In this document: positions 1 to 13,645 of the stretch, in pieces
Position numbering within the stretch: position 1 is the stretch's first letter
Layout: each line of letters begins with the position of its first letter
DNA from: Tissierellales bacterium
GTDB taxonomy: Bacteria; Bacillota; Clostridia; Tissierellales; JAOAQY01
NCBI GenBank assembly: GCA_025210965.1
Contig: JAOAQY010000094.1
Location: 1 to 47,711, forward strand
Reading direction: 5' to 3'
Length of the DNA: 47,711 nucleotides
Translations under genes and position numbers: made by a program
Notes under the pieces: model-generated
What the model was told of the DNA's origin: nothing
The model's input: only the letters and a program-made list of their open reading frames with translations
Database searches by the model: none

Positions 1-1244
1 CATCCATTGTCTTCTATTTTGATAGCTGCAAAATCATTTTCTTTATAGAGCTCTACTTTTATTGCACCCTCTTCTTGAGTGTATTTGATAGCGTTGTGAA
101 GTATGTTGATTATAGATTGCTGTATTTTATCAGAATCTAACCTGAGCTGCAATTTATCTTTTTCTATAAATGTTATGCTCATTCTCTTTTCTTCAGCTAA
201 TGGACGTAATCTTTTTATTATTCTTCCAACTAAAAAATTTACATAAGTCGGTTTAAGGTTTACATCTAATTTTTTCTTATCTAAATCCACTAATAGCAAT
301 AAATCAGTTATTATATTATTCAATCTTTCAACTTCACCATCTATATCTTTCATAAATTCTCTATAAATCTCTATACCTGCTGATTCATCTTGAATCAAAC
401 TATTTGACAGGAGTTTTATAGAACTGAGAGGTGTTCTAAGTTCATGCGATACATTAGCAACAAAATCTTTTCTCTGAGCATCAACTTCACCAAGCTTTAC
501 ACTCATACTGTTAAATGCACTACTTAGAAGACCAAATTCATCACTACTGTGTGTTTCTATTTTTTGTGAAAAATCGCCCTGAGACATTTTATTTATCGCT
601 TGTATCATTCTATTTATTGGTTTAGACAAGTAATCCGCAAATCCAAAGCCTATTAAACTTATAAAAACCAGACCTATAAGTGATATAAGGTTTATTAAAT
701 CCTGTACCTCTTCTATGTTCTTTTTTATATCATTTAACGATGTGGATATAAATGTAACTCCTATAACCTTGTTATCAAGTCTAATTGGTACTGCAAGATA
801 CATTACTCTTCCAAACTCTTCAAATTCATGAGTTTCTACAGTAGTATCTCCTCCAAGTGCTTTTTTTATCTCGTCATGTTTTAATAACTTACCTTCTATT
901 ATTTGATTAGAATCTTTCAGTACTCTACCATTTTTGTCTAGTATGAGAACTCTAGAATTTAAGGTTTCTCCATAGCTTATTATTTGGCTACTCAAAAGTG
1001 CAAACGAATAATTTTGCTTTGGAATATCTATAAAGTACTTCACACTATTACTTATTACGTTAGCTTCCGAAAGAAGAGATACTTTTTTGTTTCTCACATA
1101 GGTTTCTTCCAAAGTACTCGCTATAAAAATATTTAATATGACTACAAAGAATAAAATAAGTAGTAAATACGTCGATATGAGTTTCCATCTTATACTCATA
1201 AATTTACTACGCTGCATACTTTCTATTACACTATTTCTATTCAT
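1..1244 (-). CDS. Membrane sensor histidine kinase, C-terminus cut by window edge
   Basis: Partner of the OmpR-type regulator just upstream. The start is ATG at 1244 behind GGGAGAAGG. About 414 codons are visible. In order: a membrane segment (about residues 19-42), an extracellular sensor region of about 130 residues, a second membrane segment, a HAMP linker, a HisKA domain with phospho-acceptor His267 in HELRTP, and the start of the GHKL ATPase domain with its N box. The reading runs off the window just after the DNG of the G1 box, so nothing suggests a broken gene. The layout resembles PhoR/ResE/WalK kinases; no PAS domain is evident. The ligand cannot be told. It is separated from the regulator gene by 51 bases that contain a hairpin. 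Confidence 0.9.
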   Translation of the reverse strand, partial: MNRNSVIESMQRSKFMSIRWKLISTYLLLILFFVVILNIFIASTLEETYVRNKKVSLLSEANVISNSVKYFIDIPKQNYSFALLSSQIISYGETLNSRVLILDKNGRVLKDSNQIIEGKLLKHDEIKKALGGDTTVETHEFEEFGRVMYLAVPIRLDNKVIGVTFISTSLNDIKKNIEEVQDLINLISLIGLVFISLIGFGFADYLSKPINRMIQAINKMSQGDFSQKIETHSSDEFGLLSSAFNSMSVKLGEVDAQRKDFVANVSHELRTPLSSIKLLSNSLIQDESAGIEIYREFMKDIDGEVERLNNIITDLLLLVDLDKKKLDVNLKPTYVNFLVGRIIKRLRPLAEEKRMSITFIEKDKLQLRLDSDKIQQSIINILHNAIKYTQEEGAIKVELYKENDFAAIKIEDNG

Positions 1245-2097: not shown

Positions 2098-4023
2098 TTA
2101 AGACTTTACATTTTCGTAAAGTTTTCTAATATCTCCTTCGCGAATTGTTATCTTTTGGCTATCTAAGAATTCCAAAAATGCAACAGCATATTTACGACTT
2201 ATTCCTAGTTTATCTCTAAATTCAGCCATAGTAATTCCACCATTTTCTGAAATATGCTTCTTCAAGTACTCTATTGCCTCATCATAGTATTTTTTATGAT
2301 AAGTAACTATATTAGAAACTTTAATTAATGTTCCTTCTATAAGCATAGCATTATATATTTCGTTTACCAATGGTTGTTCTTTTTGACTATATGCTTCTAT
2401 TATCTCAAAACTATTTTTTGGAGCATATGCTCCCTCTTCAAATTCTTTTGAAAGCGCATTGTATATTGCTCTCGATTCGTCATCATAGCTTTTCTCGAAA
2501 TCATAAAGAGCTATAGCCTTGTCTTTCACCTTGATTTCTGATTTTGATTCAAGTAATTGAATAAACACATCAAATACATTTGAATTGACATTTTGAAAAT
2601 ATTTGCTTCTCATTTCTTCTTTTATAGCTCCATCTCTAAGTGGATAATCTCTATGAAAATCACTTAAGTGGTCTTTTAATTGTTGCACTAGCATCTGATA
2701 TGAACTATCTGCTATATAATAATTTTCACTATATACTTTTAATTCGTGAATTTTATTTTCTTCTTTCAGATCACTTATATCTGCTTCTAGAATTTTATTT
2801 GACTGACCTAATTCAAGAGCTAGTGTTTTCATAGTAGCAAAATATCCTTTAGATTGCTTTATTTTATTTAAAACTAACTCATTGGAATCACCGGTTTCCA
2901 TAAGTTCTATTTCCTTTAATGCATTTTCATCAAAGCGCTTTCGCTTTGGGGGATTTGGCTCTATTATAACACCTCCACCAATAGTATCCATCGGTGAATA
3001 AAATCTTAGGACAAATCTATCTTCTTTTTTCGCTACAATCTCTTCTTCAAGTCTAAGCTGTACATAAGCCTCTTCACCAGGCCCTACATATTCTCTGTCT
3101 AATACTACCGCTCTACAAAGCACTTCCCTCGCACCATGATACAATCTAAGTCTCGTTCTATTTTCAATAATTCTTGGAGCGTCTTTTAACATCTGAACTT
3201 TGACATCTAACATCATAGTATTAGTAAATGTCTTTGGCGGTGCCACAATATCTCCTCTTTCAATTTCACTTTTCTTGATATTTGAAAGATTTAAAGCAAC
3301 TCTCTGTCCTGCATGAGCTTCATTAGACGCCTCTCCGTGAACTTGAATTCCCCTTATTTTTGTAGATTTACTCGCTGGATATACACTTACCTCATCCCCA
3401 ACTTTAAATGTTCCCGATATAAGAGTTCCAGTTACTACAGTTCCAAATCCAGTAATTGTAAATATTCTATCTACCGGAAGTCTTGGGATACCTTCATCGC
3501 TCTTAGCTTCTATTTTTTCACTCATATCTGACAATAATTGTTTCAGTTCAGCTATACCTTCTCCTGAAACCGAATCAACTGACAATATTGGTGCATTTTC
3601 CAAAAAAGTACCTTCTAGTGAATCTTTTATATCTTCTTGCACTAATTCTAACCAATCTTCATCAACTAAATTCTTTTTTGTAAGAACTACTATACCATGA
3701 TGTAATTCTAACATGTTTAATATATCTAAGTGTTCTTTTGTTTGCTTCATTATTCCTTCATCAGCAGCTATCACTAGCATTACCATATCCATGCCACTTA
3801 CTCCAGCAAGCATGTTTTTTAGAAATCTCTCGTGACCTGGAACATCTACGATTCCTGCTTTAGTACCATTTTCTAAATCAAAATAAGTAAATCCAAGTTC
3901 TATAGATATACCTCTTTCTTTTTCTTGTTCTAAACGATCAGTCTCATGACCTGTAAGTGCCTTTATCAACGTTGTTTTACCATGATCTATATGACCAGCC
4001 GTTCCTATTATAAAGTTGCTCAT
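2098..4023 (-). CDS. selB: Selenocysteine-specific elongation factor SelB
   Basis: Carries Sec-tRNA(Sec) to the ribosome at UGA codons marked by a SECIS hairpin. The 641 residues hold an EF-Tu-like GTPase domain (about 1-170) with G1 GHIDHGKT and G3 DVPGHE, beta-barrel domains (about 170-345), then the C-terminal winged-helix repeats that bind SECIS RNA. The length is normal for the family. The start is ATG behind AGGAG. Odd point: the G4 motif is T115-K-K-N118 where family members have Asp at the last position (codon 3670-3672 read as AAT), and the G5 region reads VDSVSG with Asp151. The rest is intact, and selD of the same operon needs a working SelB. Last of the comEA-selD-selA-selB series, 22 bases after selA. 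Confidence 0.96.
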
Positions 4024-4045: not shown

Positions 4046-5452
4046 TTATGCTTTTTTCAAAACTTCTTTAAATGTCTTTGCAATATATTCAAATGAATTA
4101 ACGTCAATAGTCCTAACATCCAATAGCAAACGATCTTGATAAACTCTAGCAATAATGGGTACTTCTACATTACGAAGTCTCTCTTCTAAACTAGCCACAC
4201 TTATCTGACTTGGATTTATTTCTATAGCTTTAGTAGCTAAACGAGAAAGTGGCATAGCGCCTCCACCTATTTGAGACTTTTGATCAACTATTCTAAATTC
4301 TGCATCTACATTTTCGCTTTTTAGCGTATCAAACAATCCATTAGCTTTATCTTCTAGTTCTTCCATCGTCATAGTTGCCATTTTCATAGTTGGTATCTGC
4401 TCTATAACTTTCTTTTCATCTAGATATAATTTTAATGTTTCCTCTAATGCTGCTATGGTAAATTTATCTATCCTCACTGCTCTAGTAAGCGGATTTTTCT
4501 TCATTTCATCTATATAACATTTTTTCCCTACAATAATTCCCGCTTGTGGTCCTCCTAAAAGTTTATCTCCACTAAACGAAACGATTTCTATTCCTGCCTT
4601 TATAGATTCTTGAACCGTTGGCTCATGTTCAAGACCATATTTTTCTAAATTCAGAAGAACTCCACTTCCGATATCTTCTATTACCGGAATATCATGTTTT
4701 TGACCTATCTCAACAAGTTCTTCAAGTGATACTTCATCTGTAAATCCCATTATTCTGTAGTTACTTGTGTGAACTTTCAATAGTACACCAGTTTCTTCTG
4801 TAATCGCTTTCTCATAATCTCTAGCATGCGTTTTGTTTGTAGCTCCCACTTCTACGAGCTTTGCCCCACTTTGTTCCATAACTTCAGGTATTCTAAACGA
4901 TCCACCTATTTCAACTAATTCGCCTCTAGAAACTATAGCTTCCTTACCTTTAGCCATAGTACTAAGTATAAGCATTACAGCAGAAGCATTGTTATTTACA
5001 ACCATAGCGGCTTCTGCTCCTGTTATCTTTTGAATAACTTCTTCTACATGGCTATATCTAGAGCCTCGCCTTCCAGCTTCTAAATTATACTCTAAATTTG
5101 AATATGATCTAGCCACTTCCGCTACTTTCTCAACTGCAGATTCTGCCAAAAGCGATCTTCCTAAATTCGTGTGTATTATTGTTCCAGTTGCATTTATAAC
5201 TTTTTTAAGATGTGAATCATTTTCCTTCAATATATCTTTTTCTATAACTTGAGGCAAATTTCTTATCAATGCTTCTAGCTCATCTAAATTTACTTCATCA
5301 TTTTTTATCTTTTCTCGTAATCCATCTAACGCTTTACGAATCATTTCCATAACTGTTACTCTTGGACACTCTTCAAGGCAAGCCTCTACTCTAGTATCTG
5401 CCAATATTTCATCCACTTTTGGGATTTTTTTAAACAATTCCCCTTTATTCAT
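4046..5452 (-). CDS. selA: L-seryl-tRNA(Sec) selenium transferase SelA
   Basis: Pyridoxal-phosphate enzyme that converts Ser-tRNA(Sec) to Sec-tRNA(Sec) using selenophosphate from SelD. 468 residues, normal for bacterial SelA. The PLP lysine is Lys297 in SGDKLLGGPQAG; INATGTIIHTNLGRS is the family's N-terminal signature. The frame is open 12 bases further up (GTG/TTG codons), but those lie on or against the AGGAG ribosome site, so ATG at 5452 is preferred; its spacing of about 11 bases is long. Lies between selD and selB, all in one direction. The 83-base selD-selA spacer contains short AT-rich direct repeats. Confidence 0.96.
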   Translation of the reverse strand: MNKGELFKKIPKVDEILADTRVEACLEECPRVTVMEMIRKALDGLREKIKNDEVNLDELEALIRNLPQVIEKDILKENDSHLKKVINATGTIIHTNLGRSLLAESAVEKVAEVARSYSNLEYNLEAGRRGSRYSHVEEVIQKITGAEAAMVVNNNASAVMLILSTMAKGKEAIVSRGELVEIGGSFRIPEVMEQSGAKLVEVGATNKTHARDYEKAITEETGVLLKVHTSNYRIMGFTDEVSLEELVEIGQKHDIPVIEDIGSGVLLNLEKYGLEHEPTVQESIKAGIEIVSFSGDKLLGGPQAGIIVGKKCYIDEMKKNPLTRAVRIDKFTIAALEETLKLYLDEKKVIEQIPTMKMATMTMEELEDKANGLFDTLKSENVDAEFRIVDQKSQIGGGAMPLSRLATKAIEINPSQISVASLEERLRNVEVPIIARVYQDRLLLDVRTIDVNSFEYIAKTFKEVLKKA

Positions 5453-5500
5453 GAAATTCAACACTCCTCATCAATCTACTACTTAGTCAATTAATTAACG

Positions 5501-5540
5501 ACTAACTAATTAGCTATCAACTAATAAACTACTAACTAAT
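5501..5540. repeat. Short direct repeat in selD-selA spacer
   Basis: ACTAACTAAT occurs at 5501-5510 and again at 5531-5540, exactly 30 bases apart, with a related TCAACTAATAAA between. The second copy runs over the selD stop codon. The region is simple AT-rich sequence; it may be chance or slippage. Confidence 0.45.
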
Positions 5541-6576
5541 CAACTACTATATAATACTCTTGCTTATCCGTTACCTCTCCTATAACTGCGTAAGGCGTAA
5601 CATTAGCTTCAAGTTCTTTTAATATTTCATCTTTTTTCTCTGCTGGTAATGATATCAATAATCCACCTGATGTTTGTGGGTCATACATACAATCTACCAT
5701 ATTTTGAGCAACTCCATCTTTTATCAATACTTCGTCTTTTATATGCTCCATGTTCGCATAAGCCCCAGCTGGTATTATACCCATAGAAGCTAATTCTAAT
5801 GCTCCGTAAATCGTAGGAATACTTTCAGTATGCAAATGAAGTGTTTTTCCACTTCCTTCCGCCATCTCAAAAGCATGACCCATAAGACCAAATCCAGTAA
5901 CATCTGTACAAGCATTTGCTCCTACCTTCATCATAGCGTCTTTAGCTATCTTGTTCAAAGTTCTCATAGAAAGTATTGCTTCTTCATACGATTGCTTTTC
6001 AGCCATATCTGCTTTAAAAGCAGTATTCACCACTCCAACTCCAATTGGTTTTGTAAGAACCAATATATCTCCTGTTTTAGCACTAGAATTTTTCATAACA
6101 TCGTCTGGATGTATGAACCCTGTAACAGAAAGACCAAATTTAGGTTCTTTATCCTCTATAGTATGTCCACCAACAACCATAGCATTCGCTTCTCTTACTT
6201 TGTCATGTCCACCTCTCAATATGCCTTCAATGGTAGATGCACAAAGATCTTCTGGAAAACAAACTATATTCATAGCAAGCAGTGGATCTGTACCCATAGC
6301 ATAAACATCACTAAGAGAATTTGCCGCTGCTATTTGTCCATATAAATAGGGGTCATCTACTATAGGTGTAAAGAAATCTACTGTAAGAACTACTGCTGTT
6401 TCATCATTTATTTGGTATACAGCCGCATCATCAGATGTTTCTATCCCAACTAACAATCTATCATCTTTTTGATTCTTTGGTAATTCACATAACACTTGAG
6501 CCAGAACATCTGGCCCTATTTTAGCAGCTCAACCCGAACTTCTAGTCATTTCCGTTAATCGCTTTTGTTTTTCCAT
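5536..6576 (-). CDS. selD: Selenide, water dikinase SelD with in-frame selenocysteine
   Basis: Makes selenophosphate from selenide and ATP, the selenium donor for SelA. Read as 346 residues from ATG 6576 behind AGGTGG, with TGA at codon 16 (6529-6531) decoded as selenocysteine. A plain open frame begins only at 6495 and would lose the catalytic N-terminus. The stretch SSG-U-AAKIGPDVLAQ matches the family's catalytic loop, in which Cys or Sec sits at exactly this position and Lys19 is the essential lysine. The rest is complete: VDFFTPIVDDP, AANSLSDVYAMG, VVGGHTIED, TDVTGFGLMGH and the C-terminal DPQTSGGL. A SECIS-like hairpin follows the TGA. The selD ribosome site overlaps the end of comEA, so translation is probably coupled. 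Confidence 0.96.
6498..6516 (-). promoter_or_regulatory. Bacterial SECIS-like hairpin in selD
   Basis: Starting 12 bases after the TGA, GGGCCAGA and TCTGGCTC pair (one G-U) around the loop TGT. Bacterial SECIS elements lie inside the reading frame just after the UGA with an apical loop about 20 bases downstream that binds the SelB C-terminus; this one fits in place and size. The family consensus is loose, so the match is by position and pairing. Confidence 0.75.
6529..6531 (-). other. selD: Selenocysteine codon (TGA) of selD
   Basis: In-frame TGA, codon 16 of selD, at the catalytic Cys/Sec position. Open coding sequence of the same family continues in frame on both sides (LTEMTRSSG before, AAKIGPDVL after), so it is recoded and not a terminating codon. 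Confidence 0.93.
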
Positions 6577-6587
6577 TTTAAACCACC

Positions 6588-7178
6588 TCAAATTCTAATT
6601 AGAGACTTCATTTTTTCATATGTTTTGTCTCCAATTCCCTTAATTAATTTTACTTCATCTATACTTTTAAATTTGTGTTCTTTTCTATATTGTATAATGA
6701 GCTCAGCTTTTTTCTCTCCCACTCCTGGAAGTTTCTCGAGTTCAGCTTTAGTTGCTACATTAATGGATACCTTGCTTGATTTTACTTCATTATTACTTTG
6801 CATACTCACTTCACTAGATTTAGATATCTGTCCTGCTTCTGCTATTGTTATTTTTTCTTCATCTTGAACTACTCTAGCTAAGTTTTCAGATTCTCTATCT
6901 GCATTGTATTCAAATCCCCCTGCGCTTTCAACAACATCCATCAAACGGCTTCCTTCATCCATTTCATAGACTCCAGGATTTTTCACACACCCACATATAT
7001 GAACAAAAATTTTAGATGATTTTTCAGATTCTGCTTCACCATTTAAACTCAATCTCTCAAAATTTTCTTCTAATTCAAATTGGTCATCAGAATTAAAATT
7101 CATCCAACATCCTATAATAAAGAAAATACCAACAACTACTAGTATAAACAACTGCTTTCGTTTTGTAAAGAATGACAT
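6588..7178 (-). CDS. comEA: ComEA-like membrane-anchored DNA-binding protein
   Basis: Likely DNA receptor for uptake across the wall. 196 residues: an N-terminal membrane anchor (about 10-28), a linker, an SLBB domain (about 56-105, beginning IFVHICGCVKNPGVYEM), a low-complexity linker, and a C-terminal helix-hairpin-helix pair (about 137-196, INVATKAELEKLPGVGEKKA) that binds DNA backbone. Start ATG behind GGAGGCGG. It has no ComEC neighbour here. Instead it heads the selenium genes: its stop is 11 bases from the selD start, and the selD ribosome site overlaps its last codons. Confidence 0.9.
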   Translation of the reverse strand: MSFFTKRKQLFILVVVGIFFIIGCWMNFNSDDQFELEENFERLSLNGEAESEKSSKIFVHICGCVKNPGVYEMDEGSRLMDVVESAGGFEYNADRESENLARVVQDEEKITIAEAGQISKSSEVSMQSNNEVKSSKVSINVATKAELEKLPGVGEKKAELIIQYRKEHKFKSIDEVKLIKGIGDKTYEKMKSLIRI

Positions 7179-13565: not shown

Positions 13566-13640
13566 CACCTCCTCTAACCAGTCTCGCCAAAATTCAGGTA
13601 CTGCCTAGCAGTTTTAAACCCAATCTGTGCGGCTTACAGC
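13566..13640 (-). promoter_or_regulatory. Probable L21 leader (5' UTR structure)
   Basis: The transcript from the promoter at 13646-13674 begins with small hairpins: CTGT/ACAG at 13625-13639 and ACTGC-TAG-GCAGT at 13600-13612, the latter next to the conserved-looking GGGTTTAAAA. Firmicutes carry an L21 leader thought to control rplU. The match is by place and general shape; no covariance model was run. Confidence 0.55.
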
Positions 13641-13645
13641 TATAG

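Follow-up and report, generated by a model that had tools for sequence, protein, structure and literature searches.

Selenophosphate synthetases (SelD) which themselves contain selenocysteine (Sec) have long been known from many bacteria (PMC4561486, PMC1794560), and among prokaryotic selenoproteins SelD is often ranked second in how widely it occurs (PMC4561486, PMC1794560, PMC13188914). In bacteria the SECIS element lies just past the UGA codon, and bacterial SECIS elements have been described, in general terms, as more plastic (PMC13188914). In Clostridioides difficile the selD gene stands at the start of an operon in the order selD-selA-selB (PMC5677094) and SelD appears among its listed selenoproteins (PMC1794560); its selD gene has been described as 951 bp (PMC5677094), a length that would fit the same truncated gene call as is reported below.

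The stretch of DNA analysed here (the window; 47,711 nucleotides of contig JAOAQY010000094.1 from a Tissierellales bacterium) carries a selD gene at the start of an operon in the same order as in C. difficile (Table 1). When TGA was translated as Sec (U), the selD frame gave a protein of 346 amino acids beginning MEKQKRLTEMTRSSGUAAKIGP, in which codon 16 was the sole TGA, as proposed in the first-pass annotation. This reading gave a full-length match to the curated selD model TIGR00476 with 393 bits (cut-off 125) and matched the curated model NF002098 with 346 bits (cut-off 299), and phmmer aligned it from end to end with SelDs of solved structure, including 2yye, which has Cys at the Sec position. 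The catalytic loop reads RSSGUAAKIGP, compared to RSSGCAAKVGP in 2yye, with the xGUAAK motif and the following lysine present. The protein would be expected to make selenophosphate from selenide and ATP. As in other bacterial Sec-SelDs (and in eukaryotic SPS2/SEPHS2), Sec occupies the catalytic residue and the gene is a single one; only one copy of selD was found in the genome, which is rated 95.8% complete. Gene calling with translation table 11 begins the selD open reading frame at GTG 6495 and returns 319 amino acids; the loss of the first 27 codons had been anticipated from the sequence, and with them automated annotation loses the catalytic residue of SelD. A 15-bp AT-rich tandem repeat of about four copies (5488-5556) covers the 3' end of selD and the spacer between selD and selA.

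Table 1. Features of the selD-selA-selB locus in the window.
Feature	Position	Strand	Remarks
selD, selenophosphate synthetase	5536..6576	-	346 aa, Sec at residue 16; TAG stop included in coordinates
In-frame TGA (Sec codon)	6529..6531	-	Catalytic position, motif SSG-U-AAK
8-bp hairpin GGGCCAGA-UGU-UCUGGCUC, probable SECIS	6498..6516	-	UGA-to-loop spacing 20 nt
Decayed remnant GCUCAAGUGUUAUGU of the order-conserved hairpin	6487..6501	-	2 of 6 pairs broken; four-base overlap with the new hairpin
Ribosome-binding site AGGTGG	6583..6588	-	Precedes selD ATG 6576; rated good
selA, Sec synthase	4046..5464	-	TIGR00474, 640 bits; adjacent to selD
selB, Sec-specific elongation factor, winged-helix C-terminal domains	2098..4023	-	TIGR00475, 386 bits; SelB-wing_2 and SelB-wing_3

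The genome holds all four of selA, selB, selC and selD. A tRNA-Sec gene (selC; anticodon UCA, 68 bits) was found on a second contig (C90), the right end of which (L045 2821-2961) is identical to the left end of the window (1-141) over 141 nt; joining the two contigs yields one uninterrupted histidine-kinase frame, and the overlap suggests that they are contiguous. The joined order would be selD, selA, selB, a response regulator, a histidine kinase, a lipoprotein-like gene and selC, with the end of selC 3.3 kb past the selB stop; the match with C. difficile covers selD-selA-selB. Other selenoprotein genes are present in the genome: two GrdA genes with an in-frame TGA, and three full-length GrdB genes in which the frame stays open across a TGA at the established Sec site (TST-U-GTCTRCG). 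A scan of the window for in-frame TGAs between long open stretches gave no convincing selenoprotein gene besides selD, and TGA served to end 4 of 14 sampled genes in the ordinary way. A tRNA selenouridine synthase gene (SelU; L188, contig C84 271-1185) scored above its cut-off and represents a second use of selenophosphate.

The first-pass annotation had also placed a SECIS-like hairpin 12 bases after the TGA. The stem GGGCCAGA-UGU-UCUGGCUC does begin 12 nt past the TGA and spans +15 to +33 (with the U of UGA as 0); it is predicted to fold as an 8-bp stem with a 3-nt loop at -12.5 kcal/mol in context and -11.0 kcal/mol for the stem alone. It was compared with the published bacterial SECIS (bSECIS) model, which allows a loop of 3-9 nt with a G at loop position 1 or 2, an upper stem of 4-16 bp, a spacing of 16-37 nt and a free energy of -7.5 kcal/mol or below (PMC13188914). 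The hairpin lies within every one of these limits (loop UGU of 3 nt with G second, stem of 8 bp, spacing of 20 nt, energy under -7.5 kcal/mol). Among synonymous recodings, 74 of 5000 folded as well over 42 nt and 624 of 5000 over 60 nt, a length at which the excess of structure is weak to modest. A model-conforming hairpin as stable as that of the window arose in 0.33% of 20,000 synonymous recodings, -7.5 kcal/mol being reached in 2.1% of 20,000. The hairpin thus folds in excess of chance, and the evidence for this is local to the hairpin itself.

The hairpin proved not to be the one conserved in relatives, which lies 13 nt further downstream. In 151 Sec-SelDs the mean z-score against synonymous recoding was -1.8 to -2.25 in 42-nt segments starting 2-9 codons past the UGA and about 0 elsewhere, while in 18 Cys-SelDs z was near -0.3 to -0.5 in the synonymous-recoding test. 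In the order, much of this post-UGA signal is due to a hairpin that occupies +30 to +44 on the same numbering (codons A-Q-V-L-C/S/R; for example GCACAG-GUU-CUGUGC) and is complete in 115 of the 126 Sec-SelDs of the order. Its pairing was found in 97% of cells (85% in shuffles) and its covariation was 0.148 (0.033 in shuffles), a value equalled in 0 of 1000 shuffles. The covarying codon pairs were GCA/UGY, GCU/AGY, GCG or UCG/CGN, CAA/UUG and CAG/CUG, so that the third positions of the Ala/Ser codons follow the Cys/Ser/Arg/Gly codon; row pairs on separate well-supported branches of the tree agreed 7 to 0 and 6 to 0. The best model-fitting hairpin of the order's Sec-SelDs stood at a spacing of 32-33 nt in 118 of 126; among the remaining members the window was alone at 20, others were at 17 or 18, and one had none. 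Two Cys-SelDs nested among Sec forms (L171 and L175) retain the order hairpin only as broken remnants, as is expected if it serves Sec insertion.

At the place of the window hairpin, order-wide conservation was not found among the relatives (54% of cells paired, with covariation not above shuffles). An upstream hairpin seen in part of the kin (centre +20.5 to +21) was rejected as a candidate, its early loop G usually being missing and its covariation weak. One pair of the downstream hairpin is missing in three Sec-SelDs (L170, L180 and L185), and in L170 no hairpin conforms to the model. Two SelDs of another genus of the order (L154 and L167), which are without the downstream hairpin, have a hairpin at a third place (AAACC-GGA-GGUUU, spacing 17).

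In the window the bases at +30 to +44 read GCU CAA GUG UUA UGU, fold at only -1.0 kcal/mol and have two of the six pairs of the order hairpin broken. The nearest relative of the window SelD (L052) is 67% identical, and no close kin of the same family was present among the genomes searched. In a sequence comparison the window differs from L052 by the silent changes GGA to GGG, CCU to CCA, GUC to GUU and GCA to GCU, probably in the direction from the kin form to the window form; each makes or permits a pair of the new stem, and GCA to GCU also disrupts the old one. Since the old and new stems share four bases, they are mutually exclusive. In a SelD tree (FastTree) from which the hairpin codons were left out, the window was nested, on a long branch, within the clade that carries the downstream hairpin (supports 99 and 100). 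Most likely, then, the SECIS was relocated by silent substitutions in the window lineage, as judged from this one genome. The downstream hairpin is also missing from a separate genus (L152, L155, L162 and L165), where another hairpin shares its centre with that of the window but agrees badly with the model, its loop being without an early G. It appears rather probable that the SECIS jumped 13 nt upstream through silent changes to an overlapping, exclusive hairpin while the surrounding protein stayed unchanged, and that the separate genus moved independently in the same direction. No clear precedent for relocation of a bacterial SECIS by silent change within an orthologous gene was found in a literature search of partial coverage. 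The protein itself is no different from other bacterial Sec-SelDs; a Sec-containing SelD is ordinary, but the placing of the hairpin, which differs from that in its own order, is the part which deserves specialist attention. An order-wide SelD SECIS, which covaries even with amino-acid changes (Cys, Ser, Arg or Gly at one position), would thus be replaceable by a new hairpin through silent changes.

It is unlikely, though deserving of consideration, that Sec is inserted while the hairpin at 6498-6516 is incidental, with the true signal residing in the remnant at 6487-6501 or in another weak structure. The order-wide hairpin sits at the remnant's place, both GrdA copies also show weak folds past the UGA, and distinct SECIS classes outside the model have been reported (PMC13188914). 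The weakness of the remnant fold argues against this reading, however, as do the pairing of four remnant bases within the new stem and the rarity of recodings that reach the stability of that stem. The GrdA genes (L081 1501-1941 and L082 1501-1938) gave a predicted fold of about -2 kcal/mol past the Sec codon, although a SECIS should be needed there, and with predicted folds this weak the GrdA SECIS was set aside as a yardstick.

The GrdB genes bear on how SelB might accommodate a hairpin at the new place. The GrdB hairpin GUUGC-GG(U/A)-GCAAC, with a spacing of 18, was found in the window genome and in 30 relatives; with GrdB at 18 and SelD at 33, SelB of the order would already read both spacings. 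The SelB of the window would probably accept a SelD hairpin at a spacing of 20 with no change of its own. The window and its kin offer natural pairs for testing how strictly SelB gauges the distance from UGA to hairpin.

Sec at residue 16 was weighed against two other fates of the UGA. It is very improbable that the codon is a true stop, so that SelD would start at GTG 6495 and lack the catalytic loop, or that the gene is a pseudogene. This is the frame that standard calling yields, and TGA ends other genes here normally, but the 15 upstream codons, preceded by a ribosome-binding site, match SelD, and more than 120 relatives keep the UGA in a frame that stays open before and after it. The truncated form would also be without a residue given as essential in E. 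coli SelD in a 1992 paper, as cited in PMC5677094. Among the same-order SelD matches listed with E <1e-100, each had one in-frame TGA except for two with Cys (G071 and G126). A reading of the UGA as some other amino acid, through a changed code or unspecific read-through, is scarcely credible: the frame is indeed open, but in 173 aligned SelDs the catalytic position is always either Sec (UGA, 154 SelDs) or Cys (19 SelDs), tRNA-Sec, SelA and SelB are present, and the window has no further convincing gene interrupted by TGA. A changed genetic code is ruled out by the use of TGA as a normal stop in the sampled genes. Nor is there any realistic prospect that the hairpin acts in transcription, as a terminator or attenuator, and not as a SECIS, for although a terminator-like call overlaps 6498-6516, it lies on the + strand, opposite selD, and the T-run is found on that strand only, with none after the hairpin on the sense strand.

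The claim that SelD is itself a selenoprotein is therefore strongly supported by the adjacent selA and selB, the tRNA-Sec with anticodon UCA, the GrdA and GrdB genes, the conserved UGA, the alignment with Sec and Cys forms and the normal use of TGA as a stop; the SECIS-like nature of the hairpin stood as regards the published model but not as regards conservation in relatives. We are highly confident of a Sec-containing SelD in which SelB and Sec-tRNA act at a hairpin past the UGA and Sec enters at residue 16, the SECIS most likely having moved. We infer that cells insert Sec at the UGA and that the window hairpin is the one recognised by SelB. In this mechanism SelB carrying Sec-tRNA(UCA) would bind the predicted hairpin just past the UGA, and Sec would be inserted at the catalytic position to give the 346-amino-acid enzyme. 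Selenophosphate from SelD would then pass to SelA for Sec and probably to SelU for tRNA selenouridine. The ancestral hairpin at 32-33 nt past the UGA would have been lost through silent changes and replaced by the overlapping 8-bp hairpin at 20 nt.

If Sec is needed for activity, the supply of SelD depends on selenophosphate, and the supply of activated selenium would depend on a pathway which SelD itself feeds. Such feedback of SelD on its own product, suggested in the first-pass annotation, is plausible from the anatomy of the gene, and the single SelD copy fits it. SelD may have partial function through misincorporation at residue 16, a possibility that follows from the activity of Cys forms in general (PMC4561486). 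SelDs were also seen in phage records, at 38-44% identity and without bearing on the selD of the window. Elsewhere in the window, a ribosomal protein L21 leader RNA (RF00559) was found at 13570-13645.
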